DNA of 41,581 nt from Candidatus Zixiibacteriota bacterium (GTDB taxonomy: Bacteria; Zixibacteria; MSB-5A5; RBG-16-43-9), in the NCBI GenBank assembly GCA_022865345.1, contig JALHSU010000160.1, forward strand, positions 1-41,581, read 5' to 3'. The notes under the pieces are model-generated. The model saw only the letters and a list, made by a program, of their open reading frames with translations, was not told the DNA's origin and made no database searches. A program made the position numbers and the translations under genes. Position 1 is the stretch's first letter. Every line of letters begins with the position of its first letter. Shown here in pieces: positions 8,634-35,829 of the stretch.

Positions 8634-8717
8634 TTTTTCTGCTCAGGGCGGATGTTATCATTTGCCCATTCTCTTGTTGAATGATGACTGCGAGGAAGAG
8701 CACAGAGCCTTCAAGGA

Positions 8718-10391: not shown

Positions 10392-10413
10392 TTTTTACAC
10401 CTTCTTTTTGCTT

Positions 10414-10444
10414 AAGAGGGCGGTGAAATTATCACCGCCCTCTT
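10414..10444 (-). promoter_or_regulatory. Intercistronic hairpin between small exported gene and FG-GAP copy 2
   Basis: Perfect 13-bp stem AAGAGGGCGGTGA (10414-10426) / TCACCGCCCTCTT (10432-10444). In the minus transcript no U-run follows it. It ends about 10 nt before the FG-GAP ribosome site, so it more likely affects mRNA stability or relative expression than termination. A sequence-divergent hairpin sits at the same place in the other operon (12860-12888). Confidence 0.6.
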
Positions 10445-10458
10445 CGAAACTCGTTTGC

Positions 10459-10857: not shown

Positions 10858-10911
10858 AACTCCCCCAAAAAAAGCTATAAAAGGTTAAAGGTTTTTGATC
10901 TTTTAAAGCAA

Positions 10912-10943
10912 TAGCCCACCCATCCATATGGATGAGTGGGCTA
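10912..10943 (-). repeat. Leader hairpin, operon B (CTAC-flanked palindrome)
   Basis: TAGCCCACCCATCCA (10912-10926) pairs, with one mismatch, with TGGATGAGTGGGCTA (10929-10943); C follows, so the minus strand reads GTAG at the hairpin base. It lies in the 5' untranslated leader and is duplicated in the other operon (13352-13383). Confidence 0.65.
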
Positions 10944-10971
10944 CAACCTTAAAGCTAAACCAATAGTTTTC

Positions 10972-10988
10972 GAGAGAGAGAGAGAGAG
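10972..10988. repeat. (GA)8 dinucleotide tract in the leader of operon B
   Basis: Eight GA units plus G on the plus strand, that is (CT)n in the transcript. The paralogous leader has five units at 13412-13422, so the tract has changed length since the duplication. Confidence 0.8.
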
Positions 10989-11049
10989 TATTTTCTATAG
11001 TCCATAACTCACCCTGAGAAGATAGATTTTTTTCTTTAATTCTAATTAC

Positions 11050-11077
11050 ATTATATAATAGTTTATTGTTTTGTCAA
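11050..11077 (-). promoter_or_regulatory. Perfect consensus sigma70 promoter, operon B
   Basis: On the minus strand TTGACA (11077-11072), a 16-nt spacer, TATAAT (11055-11050). Both hexamers are exact consensus. It would drive the small exported gene and FG-GAP copies 2 and 1 through a leader of about 185 nt. Nothing gene-like is seen between it and the stop of FG-GAP copy 3 at 11166. Confidence 0.8.
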
Positions 11078-11165
11078 GCATTTTTTGTTGACAAAACCTT
11101 CATTTTATTAGAAGCATATTTAAAGCAAGTTTTTTTTATAGTGTGAAACCGAGAATTTTTTGGGA

Positions 11166-12836
11166 TCAAGAAGGGCATAATGGTCCTCCATTTTGAAAAA
11201 GGTACCTGTAGAGTTGAATCAGGTCAGAGACGTTTATACGGGAGTTGCAGTTGACATCTGCCTGATAGGGGTAACCGGGCTTTTTGCCGTTTTTGAAAAG
11301 ATAGTTCAATAAGAATATCACATCTGTGATATCCGGTGAACCGTTGTTATTAAAATCCCCCTTTTTTCTTATCACGCCGAATTCGGTGTTGTTGGTGTTG
11401 CAGTTATCATGAAAAAGCTTACCCCATAAGATTTTTTCAGGATGGTAGGGGACATTCATATTGAAAAGATAAACGTAGTAGTTGCCGTATTGAGTAAGCA
11501 TTGCCATGTCCAATAAGCCATCCTTATTCACATCGCTGAAATTGGGGCAAAAATCATTGGTCCATCCAAAAAAATCTAAAGGATAACCGCGAACCAAGGT
11601 TCCATCCTTATGGTATGCAAAGATCCTACCGTATTTATGTAATGGTTTCTTATTTTGTCCCCTGACTATTATCTCCACTGAGTTGTCTCCATCAATATCA
11701 ACCAGTGCCAGATCATTATAAGTCAATTCTTCAAGATAAATTGGCCAGCCGGGTTGTTCTGTTCCATCTATTCTTAAAACGTGTATATTAGGCAGACCTA
11801 AGATAAATTCACCAGTTAAAAATACTATCTCTTTATAACCATCATTATCTATATCTCCGGGTATGGGTGTGGATTTGGGTTCATATTCATAATATTTGGG
11901 AAAGCCCGGCATATAGGTTCCATCGTATCTCCAGACTGCTACATAGCCGGTGAAAATGGGGTAGTCGTGAAAGGCACTGGCTAAAACTTCTAAATAACCA
12001 TCGTTGTCTAAATCACTTAAGACCACATGGTGGATCCAGCCAAAGAAGTGGTCTTTTTCTGCTTTAACCGGCCAGCCCCGTAGGGGAGTTCCATCTATAT
12101 GCCAGGCATAGATTGCCTGGGAGCCGGTTGCTACTATCTCCGGTTCCCCATCTCCATCTAAATCTCCAACTGCTGGCTGTTGGGCAATATACTCATAAGG
12201 TAGATTAGCCACCCTTTGAGGCCAACCTGGAAGAACTTCTCCTTTGGAGTCATAGACATATACTAAAGTATCGATGTAAAAGTGAACCTGACCAGAGACT
12301 ATGATTTCCAATTTCCCATCCCCATCCAAATCATAAAGAGCCGGAGCAGTTGCAGATGCGCCTAGGATTTCTACTGGAAACCCTTGCATTACAGAACCAT
12401 CCTTATTAAAGACATATAATGAACTGACAAATTCCCCTCTCTTCCATTTGGTTACTGCAATATCGGGTTCTCCATCTCCATCCACATCCCCTACTGCCGG
12501 GACTAATTCCCAGTAAGCAGATTCCGGCTCTGCCATAGCAGGCCAGTTAGGTAGATTGGTGCCATCATATCTCCAGACATAAAGACTGTCAAAGGGGAAT
12601 CCTCCGATTATCTCTAAATCCGGCAGGGTGTCTAAATCGGCTAAAACCACTGACTGGGTGGGAGCGCTTGGTTCATCATAGGGGAAGATCTTGGGCCAGC
12701 CGGGGAATAGGATGGGTTGATTCAGGGTGTCAGATGAGGAATGAACCTCTGAAGATTTAAACAGACTTAAGATCAAAAAGGCAAGGAGGGGAAAAATTTT
12801 AACAAATCCATATTTTTTTGAAGATTTAGAATTCAT
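11166..12836 (-). CDS. Secreted FG-GAP beta-propeller protein with C-terminal dockerin (copy 3)
   Basis: 556 residues with the same order of parts: signal peptide (about 1-32), propeller with DxDxDG calcium loops, and a dockerin-like end (DFNNNGSPDITDV, DVNCNSRINVSDL). It resembles copy 1 in the N-terminal blades (SATAPALYDLDGDGKLEII is shared with copy 1 and not with copy 2). It resembles copy 2 in the variable late blade (LVDIDGDNSVEIIVRG). So the three copies are mosaics of one another. The start at 12836 follows AGAAGG. It is preceded by the 133-residue exported gene (59 nt upstream, hairpin between). Secretion and calcium binding are well supported; the ligand is unknown. Confidence 0.85.
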   Translation of the reverse strand: MNSKSSKKYGFVKIFPLLAFLILSLFKSSEVHSSSDTLNQPILFPGWPKIFPYDEPSAPTQSVVLADLDTLPDLEIIGGFPFDSLYVWRYDGTNLPNWPAMAEPESAYWELVPAVGDVDGDGEPDIAVTKWKRGEFVSSLYVFNKDGSVMQGFPVEILGASATAPALYDLDGDGKLEIIVSGQVHFYIDTLVYVYDSKGEVLPGWPQRVANLPYEYIAQQPAVGDLDGDGEPEIVATGSQAIYAWHIDGTPLRGWPVKAEKDHFFGWIHHVVLSDLDNDGYLEVLASAFHDYPIFTGYVAVWRYDGTYMPGFPKYYEYEPKSTPIPGDIDNDGYKEIVFLTGEFILGLPNIHVLRIDGTEQPGWPIYLEELTYNDLALVDIDGDNSVEIIVRGQNKKPLHKYGRIFAYHKDGTLVRGYPLDFFGWTNDFCPNFSDVNKDGLLDMAMLTQYGNYYVYLFNMNVPYHPEKILWGKLFHDNCNTNNTEFGVIRKKGDFNNNGSPDITDVIFLLNYLFKNGKKPGYPYQADVNCNSRINVSDLIQLYRYLFQNGGPLCPS

Positions 12837-16815: not shown

Positions 16816-17187
16816 ATGCCGTATTGTCCTAAATGCAGGTATGAGTATAAACCGATAGTAGAGATATGTCCGGATTGCGGGAAGAGATTAGTAGCAAAGC
16901 CAAGCGAAACTAAAAGAACAGAGATGAAATCAGTAAGAACTAAAACACACGGGAGCAGAATTGAGCCCAGGATGAAACTGCTTTACGTTACTAACAAAGC
17001 GGCTTACGTTAGATTTTTAAAAGAGACATTAGAGAACAATGGGATTACGTGTATAATTAAACGCGGGCCATCAGGATTAGTGCAGCCTTCGCTGCCCCGG
17101 TCCTTTTATGATATAAGTGTTTATGTGAGAGAAGAAGATTTTGAAAAGAGTTGCGAGATCAAGGAGCAAATTGTAGATAATTTGTAA
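16816..17187 (+). CDS. Zinc-ribbon / DUF2007-like small protein (1 of 3)
   Basis: 123 residues. The N-terminus is a zinc ribbon, CPKC at 4-7 and CPDC about 14 residues later. A basic linker follows, then a C-terminal domain (about 55-123) beginning LLYVTNKAAYVRFLKETLEN. This resembles the DUF2007 (putative signal-transducing, ferredoxin-like) fold found in short bacterial proteins. The ATG follows GAGG in the tail of gcvPA. It is cytoplasmic by composition. Two paralogues follow directly. Its place inside the glycine-decarboxylase operon suggests a link to that complex or to co-regulated metabolism, but no function is known to me. Confidence 0.75.
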   Translation: MPYCPKCRYEYKPIVEICPDCGKRLVAKPSETKRTEMKSVRTKTHGSRIEPRMKLLYVTNKAAYVRFLKETLENNGITCIIKRGPSGLVQPSLPRSFYDISVYVREEDFEKSCEIKEQIVDNL

Positions 17188-17224
17188 ATAGAAAGGTAAC
17201 AAGTTAAAAAGAAATCTAAAATCT

Positions 17225-17602
17225 ATGCCGTACTGTCCAAAATGCAGGTATAAGTATAAATCGACAGTAGGGATATGTCCGGATTGCGGCAGAAAACTGG
17301 TAGTGAAATTAAAAGAGAAGAAACGAAAAAGGACTGCGAATCAGGACATATCTGAAGAAGAAACTTTAATCGAGCCCAAGCTGAAACTGCTATACGTAAG
17401 CAGAAACTTAATTTATGCTAACTTTTTGAAAGAAACATTAGAGAAAAATGGGATACCATGCCTAATTCAGAGGGAATCGGGAATTAATTTGAGAGGTCCA
17501 GCCTTAATTCGGCACCCACTCACTGATGCAAAAATATATGTGGCGGAGAAGGACTTCAAGAAAAGCTTAAAGATCAAAGAGCAATTAGTAGATAATCTCT
17601 AA
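17225..17602 (+). CDS. Zinc-ribbon / DUF2007-like small protein (2 of 3)
   Basis: 125 residues, the closest paralogue of the preceding gene (MPYCPKCRYKYKSTVGICPD against MPYCPKCRYEYKPIVEICPD), with both CxxC knuckles kept. The highly basic linker (KLKEKKRKRT) is followed by the same C-terminal domain, starting LLYVSRNLIYANFLKETLEK and ending LKIKEQLVDNL. The ribosome site is weak. The 37-nt gap to its neighbours suggests a recent tandem duplication within the operon. The domain assignment is by pattern only. Confidence 0.75.
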   Translation: MPYCPKCRYKYKSTVGICPDCGRKLVVKLKEKKRKRTANQDISEEETLIEPKLKLLYVSRNLIYANFLKETLEKNGIPCLIQRESGINLRGPALIRHPLTDAKIYVAEKDFKKSLKIKEQLVDNL

Positions 17603-17636
17603 GTTGAAGGTCACAAGTTAAAAAAAGTCGAGAATC

Positions 17637-17975
17637 ATGCCGTTTTGTCCATTGTGCAATACCGAATATCCTCCCGGCACTAAAAGATGTTCCGAATGTG
17701 AGGCAGACTTAGTTGACGAGCTGCCTGAGGAGCAGGAAGAGGCGGAGAAAAATTTAGTTCTGCTTTACACCACTCCGAACCGGGTGCTGGCGGAGTTCTT
17801 AAAAGAGACTTTGGAGGACAGCAATATCCCCTGTTTCTTGAGCTACACCGGGAGTTTTTTAGAGGGGGGCTTGGGCTACGTGGTCAAAGACCAGCCCGGG
17901 TATAGATTATATGTGCCGGAGGATAAGTACGAGGAAAGCTTAGCCATTAAAGAGCAAACTGTTGGAAACCTGTAA
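17637..17975 (+). CDS. Zinc-ribbon / DUF2007-like small protein (3 of 3)
   Basis: 112 residues, the most divergent of the three. The zinc ribbon is CPLC...CSEC, the linker is short and acidic (ELPEEQEEAEKN) rather than basic, and the C-terminal domain keeps LLYTTPNRVLAEFLKETLED and ends LAIKEQTVGNL. A longer glycine-rich loop (GSFLEGGLGY) replaces the variable middle. The opposite charge of the linker compared with copies 1 and 2 hints that the paralogues may pair with each other or with different partners; this is inference. Confidence 0.75.
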   Translation: MPFCPLCNTEYPPGTKRCSECEADLVDELPEEQEEAEKNLVLLYTTPNRVLAEFLKETLEDSNIPCFLSYTGSFLEGGLGYVVKDQPGYRLYVPEDKYEESLAIKEQTVGNL

Positions 17976-22352: not shown

Positions 22353-22817
22353 AGAAGCCGCCGTATAGTTTTGAGGTTTACTTCTTTTCAAAAGAATTAG
22401 CAGTTTTTTAAAAAATATCTTGACATTTCTTTCCAAATTTTTTAATAACATCCAGATATAATCTAAAATTAAAATAAGGGGAGGGAGCGGCTAAAAAGGG
22501 ATTTTCTATATTGTCGGGAAATCCAAAAGGGTCTTTGGATTAAATAACACTATATTTTTTTGTAAAAAATATCAAAAAAGACTTGACAAAAAAGGTTTGT
22601 TTTATACATTTAGTCTTGTTTATTGGGCTTAAGTTAGCCCGAGGAGGAGAATAGAACTTATATTAAGTTTGTTAAGTCATTAATACTTAGCTACTTAACC
22701 AAAAAGTAACAATAAAATTCTTTGCTTGAATTTTCAAGAAGGAGGTGATTTCCTAAGAGAAAATAATGCAGATTAGTTAGTGAATTTTTTCACATTCATT
22801 TTTTGGGAGGAAGAAGA
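22353..22817 (+). promoter_or_regulatory. Long leader region before the multiheme cytochrome gene
   Basis: This 465-nt gene-free stretch holds two promoter-like sites. P1 is TTGACA 22420-22425, 17-nt spacer, TAATAA 22443-22448. P2 is TTGACA 22583-22588, 16-nt spacer, TACATT 22605-22610. A hairpin AATCCAAA/TTTGGATT lies at 22520-22541, and its 5' arm could instead pair with GGATTT at 22499-22504. At 22739 there is AAGGAGGTGATT, a near-perfect complement of the 16S rRNA 3' end. It lies too far (about 70 nt) from the cytochrome ATG to be its ribosome site, which is GGGAGG at 22805. Confidence 0.45.
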
Positions 22818-25469
22818 ATGAACAAGAGATTAATTTTGATGGTTACTGGCATATTACTGCTACTGAGTTTCCAGTTTTCCTTGGCAGCAGTTCCAGTGGC
22901 TAAGATAAGGTTAATAGGGTATTCGCCCAGAGACCTTACCCAAGATACCACTCTGCACAGGACCTCTACCGCGTTACCTAACGTGGGAGTAGGCAGCAAA
23001 GTCTATTTCACAGTTAATGTAGCATTCGATACCAATACCTATACCTATTCTTGGGTTCTTACCCGGCCAATCGGGTCGTCTACAGTTTTAAGTAATACTT
23101 CGATCAAGAATCCCACTATGGTTCCGGATATTGAAGGAACTTACATAGCTACCGTGGTTATAACTGGAGCAGGCGGGACCAGTAACCCGGACACAATGTA
23201 TATCAGCGCGGGAACCTGGGTAGGGACCGGAGTCGAAGGGGGAATGACACCACACTGGCCCCAGTGCGGATTTTTCTGTCATAACGCCAAAGTTGCAGAA
23301 TGGCAGGGGACAGGACATGCCAAACTGTTCACAGAGGGTATAGATGGGATAGCCAGTGACCACTATGGTCCTAACTGTATAAGCTGTCATACAGTCGGCT
23401 ATGACACTGATCCTGCAGCCAATAATTACGGTTTCGATGATGTAGCTGCTTTATTAAGCTGGACTTTTCCTGATACGACCCAGCCAGGCAACTGGGACTC
23501 GATGGTAGTTCATTATCCGGACTTAGCCAACTTAGGCAATATCCAGTGCGAGAACTGCCATGGACCGGGAAGCAGGCACGGAGGCGAGAATAGATACAAC
23601 CGAATCGGAGTCAGCCTCAGCACTGGCGTTTGTGCAGTTTGTCATGATAGAGGTACGAATCATAGAAAGCCATATCAATGGAAATACTCCAGACATGCGA
23701 TTGCATACGGGGAAGATTCTGATCCTGAGCATATGAACCGCACTTCCTGCGCCAGATGTCACACGGCTCAAGGGTATCTCGCCGAGACGATTGGCGGACA
23801 AACTTCAGCAGCCCCCTATAAATTCGTAGAGGGAATCACCTGTGCAGCCTGTCATGACCCGCATAGCGCAGAGAATCCCAGCCAGGTCAGAAGAGCGGAA
23901 GTGTACGGTGTGTGCTATGACTGTCACACAGTCAGGCTCAGCAGCCGCGGGTTCCATCACTCGCACCAGTCTGAAATGCTTGAAGGGATAAGCGGGTATG
24001 AGTACCCTAACGAGTTATATCCTGATGGAGCCCATACCTATGCCACCGAAAAGTGCGTTACCTGCCATATGGCTACATCGCCTGCGGATAAGATCACCAA
24101 GGTAGGAGAACATACTTTTGCGGTCTTTTCCGATAATGGCACTCCGGATGATTCTACTGACGATATCCTGAACGATGCCGGCTGTCAAACCTGTCATGGA
24201 AGTGTAAGCTTAGTATTCGTGAGAACGGCTCAGGCGCAAATAGAGGCGGTTCTGGATTCCCTGGGAGCACTTCTGCCCAAGAACCAGGGAGTAGTTAGAA
24301 ACCATCTGGATCCGCTTTTGACTATCACAGAGAAGGGTGGAGCATACAACTACTACTTTGTGCTGAACGATGGTAGTATGGGCATGCACAATCCCGCTTA
24401 TGCGCAGAAGCTTTTGTGGGATTCTATTAAGAGAGTTGCAGCCCAGGCACATGCGGGAAGTATCGTGGAGATATCGGATATACCTAATGATCAGGGGAAA
24501 CAGGTGAGCATTTTGTGGAATATGTTCGCCGGTGAGGATGACATAAACCATCCAGTCATAAATTATGGTATCTGGAGAAGAGACGATACTTCTGCTCCTA
24601 AGGTTCTGGCTGGAACGGTAAATTCATTCAAGGATATGCTGTCATTATATCCGAATCTAAAACCTGGAGCAAAGGTTTCGGTTGCAGGAACGGTCTGGAC
24701 TTTCATAAACTCAGTACCTGTCCAGCATCATGATCGTTACGGGTATGTGGCACCGACTCTGTTTGATTCTACTGTCGTCTCCGGGATGCGCTGGTCGGTT
24801 TTCTATGTCTCCGGGCACACTTCAGATCCGGGGATTTTCTATGAATCCTTACCGGACAGCGGATATTCTCTGGATAATTTAGTTCCTGCAGTACCTACCG
24901 GTCTTGCAGCTCTGATTCAGGGACATAACGTGCAGTTGAGATGGGATCAGTCTCCTGATCCGGACGTGAACTATTTCTCCATTTACCGCAGCACCAGCTC
25001 AGGCTTCACGCCATCTCCTTCTAACCGAATCGGAAATTCTTCTGGGACTGAATTTGTTGACACTAATCTGGTGAACGGATCCTATTACTATAAACTGACT
25101 GCCATTGACTTCTCCGGGAACGCGGGTGGTCCTTCGGTTGAGCTTCCGATTAATGTAACCTCAGTACATGATCAGGATGGTTCTGTGCCTAAGGTATTTG
25201 CCCTGTCCCAGAACTATCCTAACCCGTTCAACCCAGTTACCCAGATCAGATTCTCCGTACCCAAGAGAACGAAAGTGGAGATCTCGGTCTATAATATCCT
25301 TGGCCAGAAGGTCAAGACCCTGTTGAACGAGGAGATAGAGGCTGGCAATTATACCTCTACCTGGAACGGTAAAGATGACAAAGGTTATGATGTATCCAGT
25401 GGGATCTACTTCTACAAATTGAGTGCTAAAGAATTCAGTGCTACCAAAAAGATGCTGCTGGTGAGGTAG
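22818..25469 (+). CDS. Secreted multiheme cytochrome c with PKD-like, FN3 and type A (T9SS) sorting domains
   Basis: 883 residues from ATG 22818 (GGGAGG 8 nt upstream; the frame opens earlier but without merit). A signal peptide (1-24) is followed by a PKD/Ig-like domain (about 25-130). The heme region (150-460) has eight CXXCH motifs plus a first site C150-GFF-CH of CX3CH type; CHNAKVAEWQGTGHAKLF resembles cytochrome c554-like domains. A segment of unrecognised fold comes next, then a fibronectin III domain (about 693-790). The C-terminal sorting domain (about 798-883) has the hallmarks NYPNPFNPVTQIRFSVP, VYNILGQKVKTL, SGIYFYKL and a final MLLVR. Export across the outer membrane by type IX secretion and surface attachment follow from that domain. 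A role in surface electron transfer is inferred. It ends at a strong terminator. Confidence 0.88.
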   Translation: MNKRLILMVTGILLLLSFQFSLAAVPVAKIRLIGYSPRDLTQDTTLHRTSTALPNVGVGSKVYFTVNVAFDTNTYTYSWVLTRPIGSSTVLSNTSIKNPTMVPDIEGTYIATVVITGAGGTSNPDTMYISAGTWVGTGVEGGMTPHWPQCGFFCHNAKVAEWQGTGHAKLFTEGIDGIASDHYGPNCISCHTVGYDTDPAANNYGFDDVAALLSWTFPDTTQPGNWDSMVVHYPDLANLGNIQCENCHGPGSRHGGENRYNRIGVSLSTGVCAVCHDRGTNHRKPYQWKYSRHAIAYGEDSDPEHMNRTSCARCHTAQGYLAETIGGQTSAAPYKFVEGITCAACHDPHSAENPSQVRRAEVYGVCYDCHTVRLSSRGFHHSHQSEMLEGISGYEYPNELYPDGAHTYATEKCVTCHMATSPADKITKVGEHTFAVFSDNGTPDDSTDDILNDAGCQTCHGSVSLVFVRTAQAQIEAVLDSLGALLPKNQGVVRNHLDPLLTITEKGGAYNYYFVLNDGSMGMHNPAYAQKLLWDSIKRVAAQAHAGSIVEISDIPNDQGKQVSILWNMFAGEDDINHPVINYGIWRRDDTSAPKVLAGTVNSFKDMLSLYPNLKPGAKVSVAGTVWTFINSVPVQHHDRYGYVAPTLFDSTVVSGMRWSVFYVSGHTSDPGIFYESLPDSGYSLDNLVPAVPTGLAALIQGHNVQLRWDQSPDPDVNYFSIYRSTSSGFTPSPSNRIGNSSGTEFVDTNLVNGSYYYKLTAIDFSGNAGGPSVELPINVTSVHDQDGSVPKVFALSQNYPNPFNPVTQIRFSVPKRTKVEISVYNILGQKVKTLLNEEIEAGNYTSTWNGKDDKGYDVSSGIYFYKLSAKEFSATKKMLLVR

Positions 25470-25970: not shown

Positions 25971-27152
25971 ATGGGAAAAAGCAAAGAAAAGAAAAGAGTT
26001 GTTATTCTTGGTTCCACCGGGTCGATCGGCAGAAGCGCTCTTCAGGTTCTGAAGAGCTTCGAGGATAGGTTCGAGATATTCGGGCTTTCCGCACACAGGA
26101 ATTTTGAACTGTTTAAGTGCCAGATTAGAGAATACAAGCCTAAAATGGCTGTATTGACTCAAACAGAAAGCTTCGAGAAAGTCAAGCGTGGGTTCAGAGA
26201 TAATAAAATTAAAATAGAATACGGGGCTGATAGTATCAACCAGATGGTATTTTCACCTGAGGTTGATATCGTCATCAATGCCATAGTCGGCTCTGCCGGT
26301 CTTTTACCCAGTTTTGCTACCCTTCAAGCAGGGAAGACTTTGGCTTTAGCCAATAAGGAATCCTTAGTTATGGCAGGGGAGCTTCTGACTGACCTGGCTA
26401 AGAAAAAAGGCTCAGAGATTCTCCCGGTTGACAGCGAACATTCTGCCATTAAACAATGCCTGCTGGCCGGGGAAAAAAACGAGGTTAAGAGATTGATATT
26501 GACAGCTTCAGGAGGGCCTTTCTATCTAAATAAAAAGAAGGATCTATCCCGGGTAACCATCAGCCAGGCCCTCTCCCATCCTACCTGGCAAATGGGGAAG
26601 AAGATCACCATAGATTCAGCTACCTTGATGAATAAAGGGTTAGAGGTGATCGAAGCTCACTGGCTTTTCGGGATACCAGCCTCACAGATAAAGGTGATAA
26701 TTCACCCCCAGTCAGTGGTTCATTCTATGGTAGAGTTCGTAGATGGCACCCTGATAGCACAGATGAGCAGACCGGATATGAAGATGCCTTTGCAATATGC
26801 TCTGCTTTATCCCGAAAGAATCGAGACCAATGATAACTTTCTAAATCTCACCCGGATAAAAAATCTCATTTTTTTAGAGCCGGACCTGGGAAGATTTCCG
26901 GCACTAAAGTTCTGTTATTTCGCTTTGGAGCTTGGCGGCACTGCCCCCAGCGTACTGAATGCGGCAAATGAAGTGGCGGTTGAATCCTTTTTACTCAGAA
27001 AGCTTTCCTTTGATAAGATACCTATGCTGGTAAGAAAGGTTTTATCCGCACATAAAGTAAAAAATAATCCGACCCTGGAGAAGATCTTAGAAGCAGACAG
27101 ATGGGCAAGAGAAGAGAGCAGGAAGTTTATTCAGCGAGAGAATAACCGATAA
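25971..27152 (+). CDS. dxr: 1-deoxy-D-xylulose 5-phosphate reductoisomerase
   Basis: 393 residues, standard length. It converts DXP to 2-C-methyl-D-erythritol 4-phosphate with NADPH, the committed step of the MEP isoprenoid pathway, in the cytoplasm. The NADPH-binding motif GSTGSIG is at 14-20. ALANKESLVMAGELL, PVDSEHSAIKQCL (metal/substrate ligands) and ILTASGGPF, TIDSATLMNKGLEVIEAHWLF are family blocks. The AAGGG ribosome site is close to the ATG. It overlaps nothing and is followed after 20 nt by rseP, a common bacterial pairing in the dxr-rseP region. Confidence 0.96.
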   Translation: MGKSKEKKRVVILGSTGSIGRSALQVLKSFEDRFEIFGLSAHRNFELFKCQIREYKPKMAVLTQTESFEKVKRGFRDNKIKIEYGADSINQMVFSPEVDIVINAIVGSAGLLPSFATLQAGKTLALANKESLVMAGELLTDLAKKKGSEILPVDSEHSAIKQCLLAGEKNEVKRLILTASGGPFYLNKKKDLSRVTISQALSHPTWQMGKKITIDSATLMNKGLEVIEAHWLFGIPASQIKVIIHPQSVVHSMVEFVDGTLIAQMSRPDMKMPLQYALLYPERIETNDNFLNLTRIKNLIFLEPDLGRFPALKFCYFALELGGTAPSVLNAANEVAVESFLLRKLSFDKIPMLVRKVLSAHKVKNNPTLEKILEADRWAREESRKFIQRENNR

Positions 27153-27172
27153 AACTTAAGGTGGACTCAAAC

Positions 27173-28228
27173 ATGATAGATGTCATATCCTTCATAGCAG
27201 CTCTGGGGATTTTGGTTTTCGTGCATGAATTTGGCCATTTCCTGGTAGCAAAAAAGGCCGGGGTAAAGGTAGAAAGGTTTTCGTTAGGTTTTCCTCCTAA
27301 GATGATAGGCAAGAAGATCGGGGATACTGAATACTGTATTTCCTGGATTCCTCTGGGCGGATACGTGAAGATGGCTGGAGAAAATCCGGATGAAGAAAAA
27401 GAGAAGTGGGAGCCTTTTGAATTTTTAGGCAAGCCAGTTTGGCAGAGAGGGTTAATAATCGTTGCGGGACCTGTGATGAATTTTCTCTTGGCTATCCTTA
27501 TCTCCTGGGGAATATTCTTCTTTAACGGCATAGATCGTTATGAGAAAACAACTGTTGGTCGGGTGGGCAAAGATACCCCGGCAGAAAAAGCCGGACTCAA
27601 AAGTGGAGACCAGATCATTTTGGTGAATGGGACCGAAGTTAGAAGTTTTGATGAAATGGCTCAGATTATTTATAAAGTGGTAAGAAAGCCCGTTACTATA
27701 AAATGGAGGAGGGGGAACGAAATTTTTGAGGCTAAGATCACAACCGTAAAGGAGCAAGTGCAAAATGAAGAAGGAAAGACTATAGAGATTGGAATGATCG
27801 GGATCGGTCCTGAACGCACCCCTCCAAAAAAGCTTTTTCAATCATTTTTTGCGGGGGTAGGGTGGACCGTTTTCCTCGTCGTGAAAACTGTAGAATTTCT
27901 GGTAGGGCTTTTCACCGGAGCGGCTTCTCTAAAGATGGTCGGAGGACCGATCTTCATTGCCCGCACAGCCGGGGAGACTGCGAAATTAGGTTTGGCAAAC
28001 TTTTTCTCCTTTATAGCTTTACTTTCAGTCAACCTCTCGATCATAAACATACTCCCGATACCTGTGCTGGACGGTGGTCATATCCTCTTCTTAGGTCTGG
28101 AAAAGTTAAGGGGGAAACCTCTTTCGCTTAAGCAAAGAGCGATCATCCAGCAGATCGGACTGGCTTTTCTCCTGATTTTGATTATCTATGTGAGCTATAA
28201 TGATATTTTGAGGTGGAAAAAAGGATAA
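27173..28228 (+). CDS. rseP: RIP metalloprotease, site-2 protease family (M50)
   Basis: 351 residues from ATG 27173, chosen because AAGGTGG sits 8 nt upstream and because the family begins a few residues before the first helix; an in-frame GTG at 27161 is also possible. The zinc motif H18-EFG-H22 is in TM1 (LGILVFVHEFGHFLVAKKAG). A PDZ domain (about 125-200; GKDTPAEKAGLKSGDQIILV) follows. The third zinc ligand lies in NILPIPVLDGGH near the C-terminus, in TM3. This inner-membrane protease cleaves anti-sigma factors or signal peptides within the membrane. Four hydrophobic segments are visible. There is one PDZ domain rather than the two of E. coli RseP. Confidence 0.93.
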   Translation: MIDVISFIAALGILVFVHEFGHFLVAKKAGVKVERFSLGFPPKMIGKKIGDTEYCISWIPLGGYVKMAGENPDEEKEKWEPFEFLGKPVWQRGLIIVAGPVMNFLLAILISWGIFFFNGIDRYEKTTVGRVGKDTPAEKAGLKSGDQIILVNGTEVRSFDEMAQIIYKVVRKPVTIKWRRGNEIFEAKITTVKEQVQNEEGKTIEIGMIGIGPERTPPKKLFQSFFAGVGWTVFLVVKTVEFLVGLFTGAASLKMVGGPIFIARTAGETAKLGLANFFSFIALLSVNLSIINILPIPVLDGGHILFLGLEKLRGKPLSLKQRAIIQQIGLAFLLILIIYVSYNDILRWKKG

Positions 28229-28418: not shown

Positions 28419-30362
28419 GTGAAGGAAAGCTGTTTAACAAAATATAAGGTCGTTTTTCTCTGGGGCTTAATCTCGCTGTTTTTACCTCTCTGTTCACAGG
28501 CAAAAGAGATAAGGTGCCTTTCCTGTCACGGGGCTAAAGATTTACTGATGACAGATGAATATGGCAGAAAAGTCTCCTTATATATTGACCCTTCCATAAT
28601 CAAAAGCTTAATCCATAAAGATTTAACCTGCATCGACTGCCATACTGAGGTCAAAGATGAAGTCCATATGGTCAAACCGGGTATAGTTCAGTGCGGCAGA
28701 TGTCATAAGGCTACGCTTTTAGAATACCGCGAAAGTTTTCACGGGAGAAAATATATTCAGGGGATAAAGGATGCGCCCTGGTGTCAGGACTGCCACGGCT
28801 CGCACGATATCAGGAGCAAGGACGACCCCAAGTCTCTTACTTACCGCCTGAATATTCCCAAGATGTGCGATAATTGCCACAAAAGCCCTGGAATGGCAAA
28901 AAAATACAATTTGCAGGTTTCAGAGCCTTACAAGCTTTATCGCGAGAGCATACATGGAAAGGCGATCGAGGAAAAAGGGTTGATCAATGCAGCGATCTGC
29001 ACTGATTGTCACGAAAGTCATGCGCTTAAAGAGCCAACTGATACTTCTTCTCTGATTTATCGCCATAATGTCCCTTCAACCTGCGGAGAATGTCATTATG
29101 GAGATTATCAGGTCTTTAAAGAATCAGTACACGGTAAAGCCGCGCTGGCGGGCAATTCTAAAGCTCCGGTCTGCACCGATTGCCATAGCGAACATTCTAT
29201 CCAGCCACCCTGGGTTAATACCTCTACGGTCTATCCAGCCAATATCTCCAGGACCACCTGTCCCTGGTGTCATTCAGCAGAAAAGATTACTGATAGATAC
29301 GGATTCGTCACTCAAAGAATGACTAAATATTTAGACAGCTACCATGGAGTGGATAGTCGTGCGGGTTGGAAAGGGGTGGCTAATTGTGCCAGTTGTCATG
29401 GCTATCATGATGTCAGGCCCTCAACCGACCCTAAATCCTCTATTAACATCGCTAACCTTCCCAGGACCTGCGGGAATTGTCATCCTAATGCCGGAGAAAA
29501 TTTCGCCAAAGGTAAAATCCATTCAGCCATTACTACGAAAAAGGAGGTCGGGGTCTATATAGTCAGAAGGATTTATATCGTTTTGATAGTCGTGGTCATC
29601 GGGGGGATGCTTTTGCACAATTCTTTGATAATATGGAAAAGGGTCAGGGAAAAATATAAAGAGGCGAAAGAGGCAACCGTAATCCGCTTCAATCAAAGCG
29701 AGATAATCCAGCACCTTTTGCTTTTTTTAACCTTCACTACTTTAGCCATAAGCGGATTCGCTTTGAAGTTTCCGAATGCCTGGTGGGCTAAATGGATGGT
29801 AAAAACTGAAGCGGGTGCACATCTGAGGAGTGATATCCACAGAATAGCTGCGGTGATCTTCATTCTGGTGTGTGTGTATAACCTCTACTATATCATTTTC
29901 ACCCCAAGGGGCAGAGCACAGCTCCGGGCAATATTTTTTGGCCCCAAAGACATACTCCTTGTAATTCAGAATATAAATTACTATTTAGGCCTGACCAAGG
30001 ATATTCCTAAGTTTGACCGATATGCTTATATGGAGAAAGCTGAGTACTGGGCATTGATCTGGGGTGCTATTGTGATGACTGTAACCGGGTTCCCGATGTG
30101 GTTTGAGAACTTCTTCTTGAAGTTTATGCCCCTGTGGCTTTTGAATGTTTTCAGAGCTATTCATCTCTATGAGGCGATCTTAGCCTCTGTAGCGATTATA
30201 GTCTGGCATATGTTCTTTATGATCTTTGAGCCGGAAAGCTATCCGGTGAACCTGGGCATGATGACCGGCAGGATCTCGGAAAAGGAGTTAGAGGAAAAAC
30301 ACGGGGCTGAGTACGAAAGGCTGAAAAACAAGGATAAATTTCGTTTGGGCAGGGACACTTGA
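28419..30362 (+). CDS. Fused 11-heme cytochrome c / diheme cytochrome b membrane protein
   Basis: 647 residues. The start is GTG 28419. A signal peptide (about 8-29) precedes a periplasmic region with eleven CXXCH motifs (about 33-355): CLSCH, CIDCH, CGRCH, CQDCH, CDNCH, CTDCH, CGECH, CTDCH, CPWCH, CASCH, CGNCH. Recurrent SxHG segments (ESFHG, ESIHG, ESVHG, DSYHG) probably supply distal ligands. A TM helix at about 377-400 is followed by a four-helix cytochrome b561/FdnI-like domain (430-600) with histidines at H431, in DIHRIAA, and in IHLYEAILASVAIIVWH. This is the layout of CbcL-type quinol oxidoreductases. Electrons would pass from menaquinol through b hemes to periplasmic c hemes. It heads a five-gene cluster and ends overlapping the next ATG by 1 nt. 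Confidence 0.88.
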   Translation: MKESCLTKYKVVFLWGLISLFLPLCSQAKEIRCLSCHGAKDLLMTDEYGRKVSLYIDPSIIKSLIHKDLTCIDCHTEVKDEVHMVKPGIVQCGRCHKATLLEYRESFHGRKYIQGIKDAPWCQDCHGSHDIRSKDDPKSLTYRLNIPKMCDNCHKSPGMAKKYNLQVSEPYKLYRESIHGKAIEEKGLINAAICTDCHESHALKEPTDTSSLIYRHNVPSTCGECHYGDYQVFKESVHGKAALAGNSKAPVCTDCHSEHSIQPPWVNTSTVYPANISRTTCPWCHSAEKITDRYGFVTQRMTKYLDSYHGVDSRAGWKGVANCASCHGYHDVRPSTDPKSSINIANLPRTCGNCHPNAGENFAKGKIHSAITTKKEVGVYIVRRIYIVLIVVVIGGMLLHNSLIIWKRVREKYKEAKEATVIRFNQSEIIQHLLLFLTFTTLAISGFALKFPNAWWAKWMVKTEAGAHLRSDIHRIAAVIFILVCVYNLYYIIFTPRGRAQLRAIFFGPKDILLVIQNINYYLGLTKDIPKFDRYAYMEKAEYWALIWGAIVMTVTGFPMWFENFFLKFMPLWLLNVFRAIHLYEAILASVAIIVWHMFFMIFEPESYPVNLGMMTGRISEKELEEKHGAEYERLKNKDKFRLGRDT

Positions 30363-32080
30363 TGTCAAAAATCAAAAAAGCTCTTAACTTGTCTTTATTG
30401 ACCACGGTCTTGTTCTTACTGGGATCGGCAAGAAGCTGGGGGCAATTCTCCAACGCCGACTGCCTGAACTGTCACGGGGATAAAACACTGAGCAAAACCG
30501 AAAAAGGGAGGACTATTTCCCTTTATGTGGATGAGTCTTCATTCAAAAATTCAATTCACGGTGAATTAGAGTGTACGAACTGCCATCAAGGCATTACGGA
30601 CTTACCCCACGCTGAGAAATTAGCTGCGCCGGATTGCGGAAGCTGTCACTCGGATACAAAAGAGATAGTCTCCAAAGGAATGCACAATCTTATTAAGGAC
30701 GGGTGCTGGTCCTGTCACGGTGGACATGACATTAAATCAACCCAGGACCCTAATTCCGTCACAAACAAGAATAACCGGGCTGAATTATGTCTTAAATGCC
30801 ATAAGGACAGGGAAAACGTTTACTTTTCCACCTACCAGCATAGCTCAGTTGAGTTCCCTGGTGGGGCTAAAGGGAAGGTTCTTTGCTATCAATGCCATGA
30901 TTCACATCGGGCTACCCTGCCGGAGCCGGTAAAAGTCTGCGGCACCTGTCATAATAAAATCTTTACCGAATTAAATAAAAGCATTCATGCTAAGGCTAAA
31001 TTAAGAGAGCTGCCCAATTGTAGAAACTGTCATTCTGAACACAAAATAAAAGCAGGAGAACAGGAGGATAAATTCGCTCGCCTGACCCAGGAGATCTCCG
31101 GCTGTCGGGAGTGTCATTCCAAGGAAACTGAGGATTTTTTTCAAGGGATGCATGGGAAAGAATTCCAGAAGAAAAACCCAGATGTGCCCTCCTGTGTGAG
31201 CTGTCATGGTGCTCATGGGATTTTAGCTGGAAAGAATCCTGAATCTCCAATCTTTCATAACAATATAATTAAGGGCTGCGTCAAGTGTCACGAGGATGAG
31301 AAGATTATGGCAAAATACGAACAACTACCTCAGCCGGTTGTTTTTAAAGCCTTTGAGAAAAGCGTTCACGGAATGGCAGTTGGAGCACGTGGTCTTTTAG
31401 TTGCACCAGCCTGTACCGAATGTCATGGAGCTCACGAGATGAGACCGGCAGACGACCCCAAATCGCCAGTGAACAAAGTCAATATAGCTCATACCTGCGC
31501 TAAATGCCATCCGGGAATAGATGAGGTATATCAAAGGAGTATACACGGTGTAACTTTAGCTAAAGGAATCTTAGATTCGCCAACCTGCACTGATTGTCAC
31601 GGCGAGCATGGTATAACCGCGGTCAGAGATCCCTCTGGTAGAGTCAGTCCTAAAAATATCCCCAAGACCTGCAGCGCCTGTCATTCCGAGGAAAGAATCG
31701 TTAAAAAATATGGGCTCTTGCCAGTTGCCTATGATACCTACATGAATAGCTTTCACGGGATTGCTCACAAGTATGGAGAGATGGTGGTTGCAGATTGCGC
31801 CAGTTGCCATGGATATCACGATATATTGCCCTCCTCTGACCCCAGGTCATCAATAAATCCTAAAAACATACCCCAGACTTGCGGAAAATGTCACAAAGGG
31901 GCTTCAGAGAATTTTGCCAGGGGGAAGGTTCATGTCGAAGCTACTAAGGAATCATCCTTAGGGGTTTATATCGTGAGAACGTTTTATACCTGGTTCATAG
32001 GAATTTTAGGAGTTCTTTTTGCCATATATATCATTCTGGACGTTTTAGGAAGGAGAAGGCGAAGAATAAAGGGGTTTTAA
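30362..32080 (+). CDS. 17-heme periplasmic cytochrome c with C-terminal membrane anchor
   Basis: 572 residues from ATG 30362, which shares one base with the previous stop, so translation is coupled. A signal peptide (about 6-27) is followed by seventeen CXXCH motifs, from CLNCH to CGKCH, over about 500 residues. SxHG segments recur (KSIHA, KSVHG, RSIHG, NSFHG), and a single hydrophobic helix near 535-560 precedes a basic tail (RRRRRIKGF). The last 150 residues closely parallel the heme domain of the fused protein upstream: CASCHGYHD, then NIPQTCGKCH, then SENFARGKVH. It lacks the b domain; that is supplied by the next gene, so the two together equal the fused architecture. Likely role: electron conduit from quinol through the periplasm. 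The acceptor is unknown. Confidence 0.88.
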   Translation: MSKIKKALNLSLLTTVLFLLGSARSWGQFSNADCLNCHGDKTLSKTEKGRTISLYVDESSFKNSIHGELECTNCHQGITDLPHAEKLAAPDCGSCHSDTKEIVSKGMHNLIKDGCWSCHGGHDIKSTQDPNSVTNKNNRAELCLKCHKDRENVYFSTYQHSSVEFPGGAKGKVLCYQCHDSHRATLPEPVKVCGTCHNKIFTELNKSIHAKAKLRELPNCRNCHSEHKIKAGEQEDKFARLTQEISGCRECHSKETEDFFQGMHGKEFQKKNPDVPSCVSCHGAHGILAGKNPESPIFHNNIIKGCVKCHEDEKIMAKYEQLPQPVVFKAFEKSVHGMAVGARGLLVAPACTECHGAHEMRPADDPKSPVNKVNIAHTCAKCHPGIDEVYQRSIHGVTLAKGILDSPTCTDCHGEHGITAVRDPSGRVSPKNIPKTCSACHSEERIVKKYGLLPVAYDTYMNSFHGIAHKYGEMVVADCASCHGYHDILPSSDPRSSINPKNIPQTCGKCHKGASENFARGKVHVEATKESSLGVYIVRTFYTWFIGILGVLFAIYIILDVLGRRRRRIKGF

Positions 32081-32135
32081 ATTGAATCATTTTGACAATG
32101 CGACCCTGAAAGGATATGTTAAAAAGGCCTTCTGA

Positions 32136-32233
32136 TGTCATTGCGAGGAGTCCAATGGACGACGAAGCAATCGTTAGACCTTTGATATATGTGAAGTGGA
32201 TTGCTTCGTCCCCTACGGGGACTCGCAATGACA
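32136..32233. repeat. 98-bp dispersed palindromic repeat with TGTCATTGCGAG ends
   Basis: The left arm TGTCATTGCGAG (32136-32147) matches the inverted right end CTCGCAATGACA (32222-32233). Inner arms GACGAAGCAATC (32161-32172) and GATTGCTTCGTC (32199-32210) also pair. Sequences of this form are a common interspersed repeat in many bacterial genomes. Here it sits between a c-type and a b-type cytochrome gene. Confidence 0.75.
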
Positions 32234-32299
32234 GGATTACGAATTTTTTCAACAGAACGTAAAAAGGGTCGCCCGAAGAACAGTAAAAAGAGAAAGAAT

Positions 32300-32992
32300 A
32301 TGGAAGAGAAAATGATGGTCCAAAGGTTTACCCGTAGCCAGAGGGTTCAGCACTTTCTTCTGCTGATCAGCTTCATAATCCTCATTATCACGGGCCTGGC
32401 TTTGAAATTTCATGATTCCTGGCTCGGCAAGCTGGTGATCAATTTGGAAGGAGGGGTGATCGCCAGGGGTATCTTTCATCGTTTTGCCGCAGTCCTTTTA
32501 ATCTTTGTAGCAATTTATCACTTTTTCTATATCATCTTTACCCGTTATGCGCATGAAGAATTTTTACTAATGCTTCCAAAGTTTAAGGATTTTAAAGATG
32601 CTTTTCAAAACGTCGCATTTACTTTAGGCCTTTCCTCTGAACATCCCAAGATCGATAAATATGCTCCGCAGGATAAATTTCAGTACTGGGCAGTAGTAGC
32701 TGGCTCCTTTCTGATGATAATAACCGGGCTGGTGCTCTGGTATCAGACCCAGGCGATGCTGGTGCTTCCCAAATGGGCGATAGACATAACCAGAGTAATG
32801 CATAGCTATCAAGGGGTGATAATCGCAGTGGTCATATTACTCTGGCACCTGTATATCGTTCATTTGAATCCCAAGAGATTTCCGATGTCCCGTATATGGA
32901 TTGATGGCAAAGTTTCTTTAGAGGAGCTTAAAGTCGAGCACCCCTTGGAATATGAGCGTAAATATCAAGGCGTAGCTGATGAAAAAAATTAG
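32300..32992 (+). CDS. Cytochrome b561/FdnI-like diheme membrane protein (partner of the 17-heme protein)
   Basis: 230 residues from ATG 32300. A longer in-frame start (CTG/TTG near 32201) would translate the dispersed repeat and is rejected; ATG 32312 is a close alternative. There are four TM helices, with heme-b candidate histidines in RVQHFLLL (TM1), IFHRFAA and AIYHFFY (TM2), and VMHSYQG and LLWHLYIVH (TM4). The same histidines occur in the C-terminal domain of the fused protein at 28419 and in the protein at 34060. The family takes electrons from membrane quinol. The tail PLEYERKYQG mirrors the AEYERL tail of the fused protein. The last 14 nt overlap the next cytochrome gene. Confidence 0.85.
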   Translation: MEEKMMVQRFTRSQRVQHFLLLISFIILIITGLALKFHDSWLGKLVINLEGGVIARGIFHRFAAVLLIFVAIYHFFYIIFTRYAHEEFLLMLPKFKDFKDAFQNVAFTLGLSSEHPKIDKYAPQDKFQYWAVVAGSFLMIITGLVLWYQTQAMLVLPKWAIDITRVMHSYQGVIIAVVILLWHLYIVHLNPKRFPMSRIWIDGKVSLEELKVEHPLEYERKYQGVADEKN

Positions 32993-34040
32993 AATTATAA
33001 TATACCTTTGTTTTTTTTTAATCTCTTTATCGGTTCACGGGCTGACTCAAGAGCTTCCCTCTAACCAGGAATGCAGGCATTGCCATTCTAATCCCAATTT
33101 AAAGAAAGTTCTAACAGATGGAAGGGTTATCTCAGAATATGTCGATTTTGACCTTTTTTATACATCAGTGCATAAGAAACAAGCCTGTGTTTATTGCCAT
33201 ATAGATGCTACCAATTTCCCCTGTAAAAATCTACGGAAAGTTAATTGCCAGAGATGTCATTATAAAGGGAACTTAGCCGGGGCCCCTGATTTAATTAAAT
33301 ATAAAGAATATGGTGAAAGCGTGCATGGAAGAGCCACCGCCTTAGGGGATGTCAAAGCTCCTATGTGCCAGGACTGTCACGGCTCTCATTATATCTTCGA
33401 CAAAGCTGATACCTTGTCTCGAACCAATAAGGAGCATATTCCTCAGACCTGTGGGGCCTGTCATGTTAATATTTATAGTGTATATAAAATAAGCGTGCAT
33501 GGTGAGGCGCTCAGGAGTAAACATATTCTGGCAGCCCCATCCTGCGCTGATTGTCATGGGGAGCATAATATAAAGGAACATATTGATCCTAAATCCAAGG
33601 TGTTTTTAACTCAGGTCTCTGTCACCTGCGCCAGATGTCATGCTAATATGGAATTGATCAAAAAATATGACATCCCGGTTGAGCCGGTGGAGACCTACAG
33701 GGAAAGCTTTCATGGAGTGGCGATTAAATTCGGAGCCAAAACAGTCGCCAATTGCTCCAGCTGCCATGAGGTGCATGCCATCTTCAAATCGGATGATCCC
33801 CGTTCCTCCATCTATGTCGATAATATCCCCAAAACCTGCGGCAAATGCCATCCGGGAGCAAGTGAAAATTTCGCCAAAGGGAAGATTCATATAAATCCCG
33901 CTAAAAAAGAGGCTGGGATAATCTATTATGTAAGCCAGTTCTTTAAATACCTGACCCTATCAGTGATGTTGGCTTTAATAATTTACATTATTCTGGATTT
34001 AAGGAAGAAGTTAATAGTTAAAAGAAAAGGTGAAGAGTAA
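32979..34040 (+). CDS. 9-heme periplasmic cytochrome c with C-terminal membrane anchor
   Basis: 353 residues. The signal peptide is about 4-22 (IIIYLCFFLISLSVHG). Nine CXXCH motifs follow: CRHCH, CVYCH, CQRCH, CQDCH, CGACH, CADCH, CARCH, CSSCH and CGKCH. Repeated SxHG (TSVHK, ESVHG, ISVHG, ESFHG) alternate with them, and there is one C-terminal TM helix (about 315-340) with a basic end. It shares the CGKCHPGASENFAKGKIH block with its two relatives upstream. The start codon lies inside the end of the b gene (14-nt overlap), so it is translationally coupled. It is the smallest c unit of the three and pairs with the b gene at 34060. Confidence 0.88.
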   Translation: MKKIRIIIYLCFFLISLSVHGLTQELPSNQECRHCHSNPNLKKVLTDGRVISEYVDFDLFYTSVHKKQACVYCHIDATNFPCKNLRKVNCQRCHYKGNLAGAPDLIKYKEYGESVHGRATALGDVKAPMCQDCHGSHYIFDKADTLSRTNKEHIPQTCGACHVNIYSVYKISVHGEALRSKHILAAPSCADCHGEHNIKEHIDPKSKVFLTQVSVTCARCHANMELIKKYDIPVEPVETYRESFHGVAIKFGAKTVANCSSCHEVHAIFKSDDPRSSIYVDNIPKTCGKCHPGASENFAKGKIHINPAKKEAGIIYYVSQFFKYLTLSVMLALIIYIILDLRKKLIVKRKGEE

Positions 34041-34059
34041 TAAAAGAGGTTAGACTAAG

Positions 34060-35037
34060 TTGGAAATGTTTTTCAGCAAGAAGAAAAAAGAACTTGAACC
34101 AAAAGTAAGCCTGGATAAACTTCAGGGAGAGATAGAGCAGGAGATCTGGGACGATCTGACCAAAGACCTTTCTCTTACTCCACATCTTAAGGAGGAGATA
34201 AAAAAGTTAGTTAAGGAAAGAGCCAGAGAAGAACTTCAAAAGGAGCTTAAGGATAGATATGCGGAGCTGAGAGAAGAAAAAGTCGAGATTCCACCTCTTG
34301 AAGAGAAGAAGAAAGAAGAAGTGATGTATCCTCGGCTGAGCCTGGATATTAGAATTCAGCATATCATCCTGATGGTTTCTACTTTGATTCTGATCATCAC
34401 CGGTTTACCGATTAAGTTCCACGAATTAGCCTGGGCTAAGTTTTTCTTCTCCGCAATTGGCGGGCTGCAGGTGAGCAGGATTTTACATCGGGTCGGAGCA
34501 GCTGGTCTTATCGGGATTGCCTTATACCATCTTCTGTTCCTGGCTTTCAGCCGGGAGGGAAGGGAAATCTTCAGGGAACTCCTTCCCAGGCCCAAGGATG
34601 TTAAAGACCTCTGGATCACGCTCAATTATTTACTGGGCAGGAAAAGGGAAAAGGCCAAGTTCGGGAAATTTACCTACATTGAGAAGTTCGATTACTGGGC
34701 AGTTTACTGGGGTATGGTGGTTATGGTGCTATCCGGGCTAATCCTCTGGTTTTTAGGTACTGCTCTTAGGATTTTTCCAAAATTCGTAGCCGATATCGCC
34801 AAAGAAGCCCATTCGGACGAAGCCCTGTTAGCCACTTCAGCCATCATCATCTGGCATTTCTACAATGCCCATCTGAACCCGGAAAAATTTCCGATGAACC
34901 GCAGTTGGCTTACTGGCAGAATCTCCGAGAAAGAGATGGAAAGAGAGCATTTCCTGGAATGGGTCGAAATTCAGAAACAAGAAGAGATAGTGGCAGAAAA
35001 GGCGGATGAGGGAAAAGTCGAGGAGCAGAAGGGGTAA
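34060..35037 (+). CDS. Cytochrome b561/FdnI-like membrane protein with N-terminal cytoplasmic coiled-coil domain
   Basis: 325 residues from TTG 34060 (AGAGG 10 nt upstream); ATG 34066 is two codons on and also possible. Residues 1-95 are highly charged (KKKKELEPK, EEIKKLVKERAREELQKEL) and look like a helical/coiled-coil extension absent from the other two b proteins. The membrane part starts near 95, with H101 in RIQHIILM (TM1), LHRVGAAGL and LYHLLFLAF (TM2), and AHSDEAL and IIWHFYNAH (TM4) as the heme-b ligands. It would form the third c/b module with the 9-heme protein. The cytoplasmic extension could dock a soluble partner or a quinone-side regulator; this is inference. The acidic C-terminus (EEIVAEKADEGKVEEQ) is also unusual. 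Confidence 0.83.
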   Translation: MEMFFSKKKKELEPKVSLDKLQGEIEQEIWDDLTKDLSLTPHLKEEIKKLVKERAREELQKELKDRYAELREEKVEIPPLEEKKKEEVMYPRLSLDIRIQHIILMVSTLILIITGLPIKFHELAWAKFFFSAIGGLQVSRILHRVGAAGLIGIALYHLLFLAFSREGREIFRELLPRPKDVKDLWITLNYLLGRKREKAKFGKFTYIEKFDYWAVYWGMVVMVLSGLILWFLGTALRIFPKFVADIAKEAHSDEALLATSAIIIWHFYNAHLNPEKFPMNRSWLTGRISEKEMEREHFLEWVEIQKQEEIVAEKADEGKVEEQKG

Positions 35038-35106: not shown

Positions 35107-35829
35107 ATGAAACTCTTTTCTAAGAAAGAAAAACCGAAAAAGAAAAAATCTATCCTGAGGGAATATGTCGAATCATTTGCCATAGCCCTTATTTTAGCCC
35201 TGATGATCAAGACTTCTGTGGTGGAGGCTTACAAGATACCCTCTGGCTCAATGGAGGATACTCTGTTGATCGGGGATTTTCTCCTGGCTAATAAATTCAT
35301 TTACGGTTCAAAACTTCCCATACCTTTTACCAATATTCATCTTCCAGCCCTGCGGGAGCCTAAAGCCGGGGATATAGTCATCTTCAAATATCCACAAGAC
35401 CAGAAGGTGAATTACATTAAAAGATGTGTAGCTGTGGCTGGAGACACGATTTTGATCAAGGACAAGGTACTTTATGTTAACAGCAGGATATTTCCCAATC
35501 CTCCGGAGTCTAAATTCACTGATAAGACTGTCTTACCTCAGGGGATGGGTAACCGGGATAATTTTGGCCCTTATGTTGTCCCCCAGGGGAATATCTTTAT
35601 GATGGGAGATAACCGGGATAATAGTTACGACAGCAGATTCTGGGGCCCACTGGATCGCAGGCTGGTATTAGGCCAAGCGATGATCATCCACTACTCCTGG
35701 GAACCGGATCTGAACGCTCCTGAGGTAAGGAGGGATGATTTACTCTCTATTCCGAAAAATATCGCCTACAATGTTATCCATTTCCCGCAAAGGGTCAGAT
35801 GGAATAGGATAGGACATATAATTAAATAA
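35107..35829 (+). CDS. lepB: Signal peptidase I
   Basis: 240 residues. It removes signal peptides from exported proteins at the periplasmic face of the inner membrane. A basic cytoplasmic start (KKEKPKKKKS) is followed by one TM helix (about 22-40). The catalytic serine is S48 in IPSGSMEDTL and the general-base lysine is K105 in YIKRCVAVAGD. The box GDNRDNSYDSR (family box E) is intact. The ribosome site is ACAGGAGG. A TATAAT at 35072-35077 may be its own -10, but no good -35 is seen. It stands at the end of the cytochrome cluster, 69 nt downstream. Confidence 0.94.
   Translation: MKLFSKKEKPKKKKSILREYVESFAIALILALMIKTSVVEAYKIPSGSMEDTLLIGDFLLANKFIYGSKLPIPFTNIHLPALREPKAGDIVIFKYPQDQKVNYIKRCVAVAGDTILIKDKVLYVNSRIFPNPPESKFTDKTVLPQGMGNRDNFGPYVVPQGNIFMMGDNRDNSYDSRFWGPLDRRLVLGQAMIIHYSWEPDLNAPEVRRDDLLSIPKNIAYNVIHFPQRVRWNRIGHIIK

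Follow-up and report, generated by a model that had tools for sequence, protein, structure and literature searches.

Gene content and borders of the cluster

The window analyzed here, a 41,581-nucleotide stretch of a Zixibacteria genome, carries five co-directional plus-strand genes (A-B-C-D-E; 28419-35037) between rseP and lepB, as delimited from the list of open reading frames and from hydropathy. Gene A (28419-30362, +) encodes a CbcL-like fusion of 647 aa with a signal-like helix, 11 CXXCH motifs, an anchor helix, and four b helices. Its 11-heme c region, taken from the first to the last CXXCH, spans 28515-29483 (+) based on the motifs and an orthologue alignment. The anchor helix (residues 377-408, including His400; 29547-29642, +) was placed with the orthologue alignment and an AF2 model, and the b domain (residues 420-636, with ligands His432, His474, His582, and His597; 29676-30326, +) with the alignment. 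B (30362-32080, +; 17 CXXCH) and D (32979-34040, +; 9 CXXCH) each end in a C-terminal transmembrane anchor, and each is followed by a four-helix diheme b protein lacking CXXCH that is its partner by position: C (32300-32992, +; 230 aa) for B and E (34060-35037, +), which has an N-terminal extension, for D. Hydropathy places the anchor and b helices of A C-terminal of its heme region, a C-terminal anchor on both B and D, and four helices in each of C and E, the weaker ones being judged by eye.

The genes are tightly spaced. A and B overlap in TGATG, with B starting at ATG 30362; C and D overlap by 14 nt; and D and E are separated by 19 nt, so translation is probably coupled across the cluster except at the B-C gap. 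This gap holds a palindromic, MITE-like repeat at 32136-32233 (no strand assigned; TGTCATTGCGAGGAG...CTCGCAATGACA), which lies outside the system and has about 43 matches in the same genome. In neither congener does this gap contain the repeat, which is a recent MITE-like insertion confined to the window species. The true start of C is almost certainly ATG 32300, giving 230 aa, rather than that of a longer TTG frame from 32201, because the 230-aa proteins of both congeners align from residue 1 and the TTG lies inside the repeat.

Two further genomes of the genus have the same five genes in the same order at 77-95% protein identity, and the arrangement is therefore not due to chance. Identity of both congeners to the window proteins is highest for C, D, and E (91-95%), followed by B (82-85%) and A (78-82%). 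On the left, the cluster is flanked by dxr and rseP (25971-28228, +), conserved in gene order across genomes, and on the right by the conserved lepB gene for signal peptidase I (35107-35829, +). A scan of genome contigs returned Zixibacteria matches only, the nearest named genomes being Candidatus Zixiibacteriota C20_concoct.bin.73 and candidate division Zixibacteria RBG_16_43_9.

Other parts of the window hold features of separate interest. A large c protein with 8 hemes and a type IX secretion sorting tail (PF18962, TIGR04183) is encoded 3 kb upstream of the cluster (22803-25469, +), from which it is separated by dxr and rseP, and its sequence suggests a probable cell-surface cytochrome; we found no paper on type IX secreted multiheme cytochromes in extracellular electron transfer. 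Three secreted proteins of 555-557 aa that closely resemble one another stand in tandem at 6966-12836 (-), two of them with a companion of 132-133 aa, and three small proteins with an N-terminal zinc-ribbon-like CPxC...C motif stand in a row at 16816-17975 (+).

Heme ligands and folds of the b and c domains

The b domains of A, C, and E belong to PF01292, scoring above the Pfam cutoff. Against the formate dehydrogenase gamma profile TIGR01583, they reach 57-75 bits, below the cutoff of 115.85, and the cluster contains no formate dehydrogenase catalytic subunit genes. We aligned 98 b domains of the class with Escherichia coli FdnI and HyaC. Of the FdnI heme ligands, His18, His57, and His155 are matched by His in all 98 domains and His169 in 97, with one unknown residue at this position; FdnI Lys114 is likewise kept in 98 of 98. 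The three b domains resemble FdnI and HyaC/HydC in their four-helix fold and in four ligands at matching positions, whereas the partner is a multiheme c protein here and a formate dehydrogenase or hydrogenase in E. coli. The first-pass annotation had described three multiheme-c/diheme-b modules of the HydC/FdnI type with 11, 17, and 9 c hemes, a description borne out by the CXXCH counts, the PF01292 assignments, and the retention of all four FdnI ligand positions across the b homologues of the class alignment. The genome encodes three FdnI/HydC-type b domains, all of them in the cluster; a fourth PF01292 match belongs to a Rieske/cytochrome b complex.

The profile of A had its best b-domain match in the PDB to FdnI (1kqf_C; E 2e-14). 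Single-chain structure prediction agreed with this for A: in Foldseek, the AF2 model (mean pLDDT 78) gave FdnI 1kqf_C as its sole significant PDB match, with a TM score of 0.76 normalized by FdnI. It was not informative for B, the model of which (mean pLDDT 61) left the N-terminal extension unmodeled and had no significant fold match.

Two further histidines lie outside the set of heme ligands. A helix II position 14 residues past the first ligand is His in 89 of the 98 domains and is Asn488 in A of the window genus. His400 of the A anchor helix is kept in all 43 orthologues, and an anchor His is also present in almost all of the 17- and 19-heme fused proteins of the phylum described below; the anchors of B, D, and their relatives in f10, another family of the class, carry Asp or Glu and no His. 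Both histidines would face the cytoplasmic side of the membrane. The menaquinone site of FdnI lies on this side, so a part for both in quinone chemistry is a reasonable guess. The anchor-helix His may serve in quinone binding or may ligate a third b heme.

Across the 43 orthologues, the c region of A has 11 CXXCH motifs, 10 in a few of them, and exactly 11 invariant non-motif His, the last one just past 28515-29483. This is as expected for 11 bis-His hemes, an assignment that fits the sequence and that has been made by measurement for the hemes of Geobacter CbcL (PMC9129911). A matches B twice and in different registers, A residues 6-374 pairing with B residues 2-402 and A residues 51-414 with B residues 200-571, and B therefore contains a repeated A-like heme region. 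Residues 249-570 of B share 49% identity with an 11-heme anchored protein from family f10, and the first six hemes of B form an N-terminal extension found only in the window genus. D is 43% identical over its length to an 8-heme anchored protein of the same family, with which it groups at 98/94 support.

The c domains have weak similarity to the NrfB, NapC, HmcA, and decaheme DmsE profiles, all far under the curated cutoffs. This likeness would suit modules that feed a periplasmic reductase for nitrite or tetrathionate, or another multiheme enzyme, in place of extracellular acceptors. We judge such a role quite improbable: no protein of the cluster exceeds an NCBIfam cutoff for nitrite, tetrathionate, or Hmc systems (HmcA, 37.8 of 400; NrfB, 32 of 166.6), no NrfA-type PF02335 match exceeds the cutoff anywhere in the genome, and no reductase gene is present in the cluster. 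A known operon of this kind, the contrary case raised in the first-pass annotation, was accordingly not recovered.

Distribution and history in the phylum

At least one homologous b domain was found in 105 of the 133 genomes of the phylum that were searched. The common core is A, a class-wide 11-heme fused protein, around which three arrangements were seen. In the first, A is accompanied, usually next to it, by a second fused protein of about 860-1000 aa with 17 or 19 hemes and a b domain (28 genomes, loci read). In the second, 20 genomes of family f10 carry an E-type b protein, and the complete array consists of an 11-heme anchored protein, an 8-heme anchored protein, the b protein, and a 13-heme c protein, often followed by A. 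The third is that of the window genus: A, a 17-heme anchored protein, b, a 9-heme anchored protein, and b. The 13-heme protein of the f10 arrays (e.g., L125 7144-8715) lacks a C-terminal anchor, directly follows the b gene, and is missing in the window genus.

The 23 genomes with an E-type b domain have exactly A and E or, in the window genus, A, C, and E. None of these 23 has the 17/19-heme fused protein, and family f10 also includes genomes of the fused type. The split array and the 17/19-heme fused protein thus behave as alternatives; the genomes are related, and no p-value is attached to the pattern.

Within the order of the window genus, the genes run dxr-rseP-A-lepB in G003, which is of the same family, and in G006 and G009, and A-lepB in G007. 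These four genomes have no cytochrome gene between A and lepB, which directly follows A, and no other b domain or B/D homologue. The five-gene order, for which the first-pass annotation had suggested a search in FCB and candidate-phylum genomes, was recovered within the phylum in the two congeners but not in these relatives, and B-C-D-E occupies exactly the A-lepB interval only in the window genus. E groups with the E-type proteins of f10 at 98/94 support, the same support as for D and its 8-heme relative. B is closest to the f10 11-heme protein by identity, its tree placement being without resolution. The f10 relatives of B, D, and E stand in the same order as in the window.

The simplest account is a single block gain of B to E from an f10-like source, because E and D are related to f10 in the trees and B by identity, the order is the same, and the A-lepB interval holds no cytochrome gene in the four relatives of the order. 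The gain is an old event, as its branches are long. The same branch lengths can be read another way, with the split array ancestral and lost in the other members of the order, since the E versions of the window genus (g1) and of f10 are sister clades on branches of 0.62-0.68. We consider this loss scenario rather unlikely, because one gain needs fewer events and because the four relatives have neither a cytochrome gene in the A-lepB interval nor any other b or B/D homologue. A is an ancient class-wide fused lineage, and B to E are most simply later arrivals beside it.

The b-domain tree, another check put forward in the first-pass annotation, resolved the domains of A, C, and E as separate deep lineages but did not give the order of fusion and splitting: rooted with FdnI and HyaC, it has outgroup branches of 3-10 substitutions per site, and the root is therefore unusable for this purpose. 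The first-pass annotation had also read A as a direct join of a split pair. A simple join is too simple a history, because the fused anchors carry a His that the split anchors lack; the ancient standing of A and the deep separation of the three b domains likewise speak against it.

C has no close relative outside the genus, and its best tree position is with A (99/95). Neither a grouping of C with E (AU p 0.106) nor one with the 17/19-heme type (AU p 0.114) is rejected; the first of these, C as a duplicate of E, is not the best tree. A shared frame and the MITE in the gap suggested that B and C might be a broken 17/19-heme fused protein. We rejected this reading because the two genes are already separate in the congeners, which lack the MITE, and because the nearest match of B is the f10 11-heme anchored protein; the b domain of C also stands apart from those of the fused 17/19-heme proteins, with the AU value not formally excluding their union.

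Taken further, the second quinol-cytochrome module of Zixibacteria might be an exchangeable cassette, present as a 17-19-heme fusion or as a split c-c-b set, never both, and moved between lineages as a block. It would here have settled beside the ancestral fused module to give three modules at different potentials, a tuning that the first-pass annotation had also entertained, the anchor His separating fused from split function. We offer this proposal tentatively and hold it to be possible but doubtful.

Proposed function and relation to known systems

A falls within the architectural definition of the CbcL/MtrH/MtoC family. As in Geobacter sulfurreducens CbcL and the homologues MtrH and MtoC, an N-terminal multiheme c domain and a C-terminal diheme b domain share a single chain, and A resembles CbcL in its six predicted transmembrane helices, conserved His ligands, and bis-His hemes. 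The likeness is one of architecture; the same layout recurs in the 43 orthologues, and CbcL has 9 c hemes where A has 11. A may oxidize menaquinol for low-potential extracellular acceptors in a CbcL-like role.

The B/C and D/E pairs differ from the CbcL family in that each of the three species of the genus encodes their c and b parts in different genes. In layout, they resemble CbcBA of G. sulfurreducens (GSU0593/GSU0594), in which a PF01292 b protein stands beside a membrane-bound heptaheme c protein (PMC7726332). CbcBA has 7 hemes, compared with 17 in B and 9 in D, and unlike CbcBA, two such pairs are found here in tandem beside a fused module. The Mco proteins of ANME are similar in reusing a hydrogenase-type (VhtC-type) b protein with a separate 7-11-heme c protein but are archaeal, are tied to methanophenazine, and represent an independent case. 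The 17- and 19-heme proteins of other Zixibacteria have the same domains, mostly stand beside A, and presumably serve as the second module there; they are fused, whereas B/C and D/E are split.

Published CbcL homologues have 3-23 hemes and 416-1034 aa and come from 15 phyla (PMC6295460), and they and CbcBA are quinol oxidases or homologues of them (PMC6295460, PMC7726332). Heme counts of 3-23 and both the fused and the split layout are on record for this kind of module, which makes the present set a variant rather than a new system. No Zixibacteria are named in the published table of CbcL homologues, and we found no paper on these clusters, in keeping with the first-pass annotation's view that such clusters are poorly described in the lineage.

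We consider it probable that A, B/C, and D/E are each an inner-membrane menaquinol:cytochrome c oxidoreductase module. Heme motifs, ligand conservation, hydropathy topology, fold similarity to FdnI, and conserved gene order are the observed basis; a quinone substrate, the pairing of B with C and of D with E, an outward direction, and extracellular electron transfer as the purpose are what we infer from it. In each module, the b part would resemble FdnI/HydC in having a bis-His heme close to either face of the membrane. Quinol oxidation, or quinone reduction if the module ran backward, would take place near the heme on the cytoplasmic side. Electrons would then move on to the heme on the periplasmic side and enter the multiheme c chain, whether this is attached or a separate partner. 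From there, they would cross the periplasm to further cytochromes and probably to an outer-membrane conduit. A would be the ancestral fused module and B/C and D/E extra split modules.

In a redox loop, a quinone site at the cytoplasmic face means that outward electron flow conserves no energy or consumes pmf, and that inward flow conserves energy. The low potentials at which CbcL and CbcBA are used (PMC6148476, PMC12307469) fit an outward route of low yield. The direction cannot be fixed from sequence (PMC6295460). In the inward case, menaquinone would be reduced with electrons of periplasmic or extracellular origin, supplied by Fe(II), by periplasmic dehydrogenases, or by a syntrophic partner, and a quinone site placed on the cytoplasmic side as in FdnI would let this conserve energy. 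Fe(II) oxidizers use MtoC homologues belonging to the same family (PMC6295460), and CbcBA has been proposed to run in reverse in Seep-SRB2 (PMC10553843). All four FdnI ligands are kept in the present proteins, and FdnI itself is a menaquinone reducer. We nevertheless regard inward flow as unlikely; sequence features do not tell the two directions apart, as PMC6295460 also states, and no MtrB-type porin exceeds the cutoff in the genome.

For the outward route that we favor, a possible partner is encoded at L163 5498-9331 (G000:C136), where genes for an 8-heme lipoprotein, a 409-aa beta-barrel-like protein, and a 14-heme protein stand side by side. The 409-aa protein has 30 alternating windows, compared with 8.0 +/- 6.0 in shuffled sequences (maximum, 38 of 500), a modest signal. 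The trio may be a candidate outer-membrane porin-cytochrome conduit outside the known families. Two other multiheme loci were seen. One (L095 1006-6197, G000:C244) encodes a Rieske protein and cytochrome b followed by a 9-heme and a 17-heme c protein, the latter with a NapC/NrfH-like start, and constitutes a bc-type complex with multiheme partners. The other (L164 8976-16435, G000:C263) encodes pentaheme, molybdopterin-type, and FeS proteins and an integral membrane protein and resembles alternative complex III.

Inner-membrane quinol oxidoreductases, CbcL, CbcBA, and ImcH among them, are regarded as some of the best markers by which extracellular electron transfer can be recognized in genomes (PMC12977616). 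In the uncultured Zixibacteria, a phylum known from metagenomes alone, such proteins occur in most genomes, in both fused and split form, and offer a natural comparison for the effects of fusion, heme number, and module stacking. The interest of the cluster lies in the stacking, the block gain, and the alternation of fused and split forms rather than in a new principle, and it defines testable proteins for an iron-cycling subsurface lineage.
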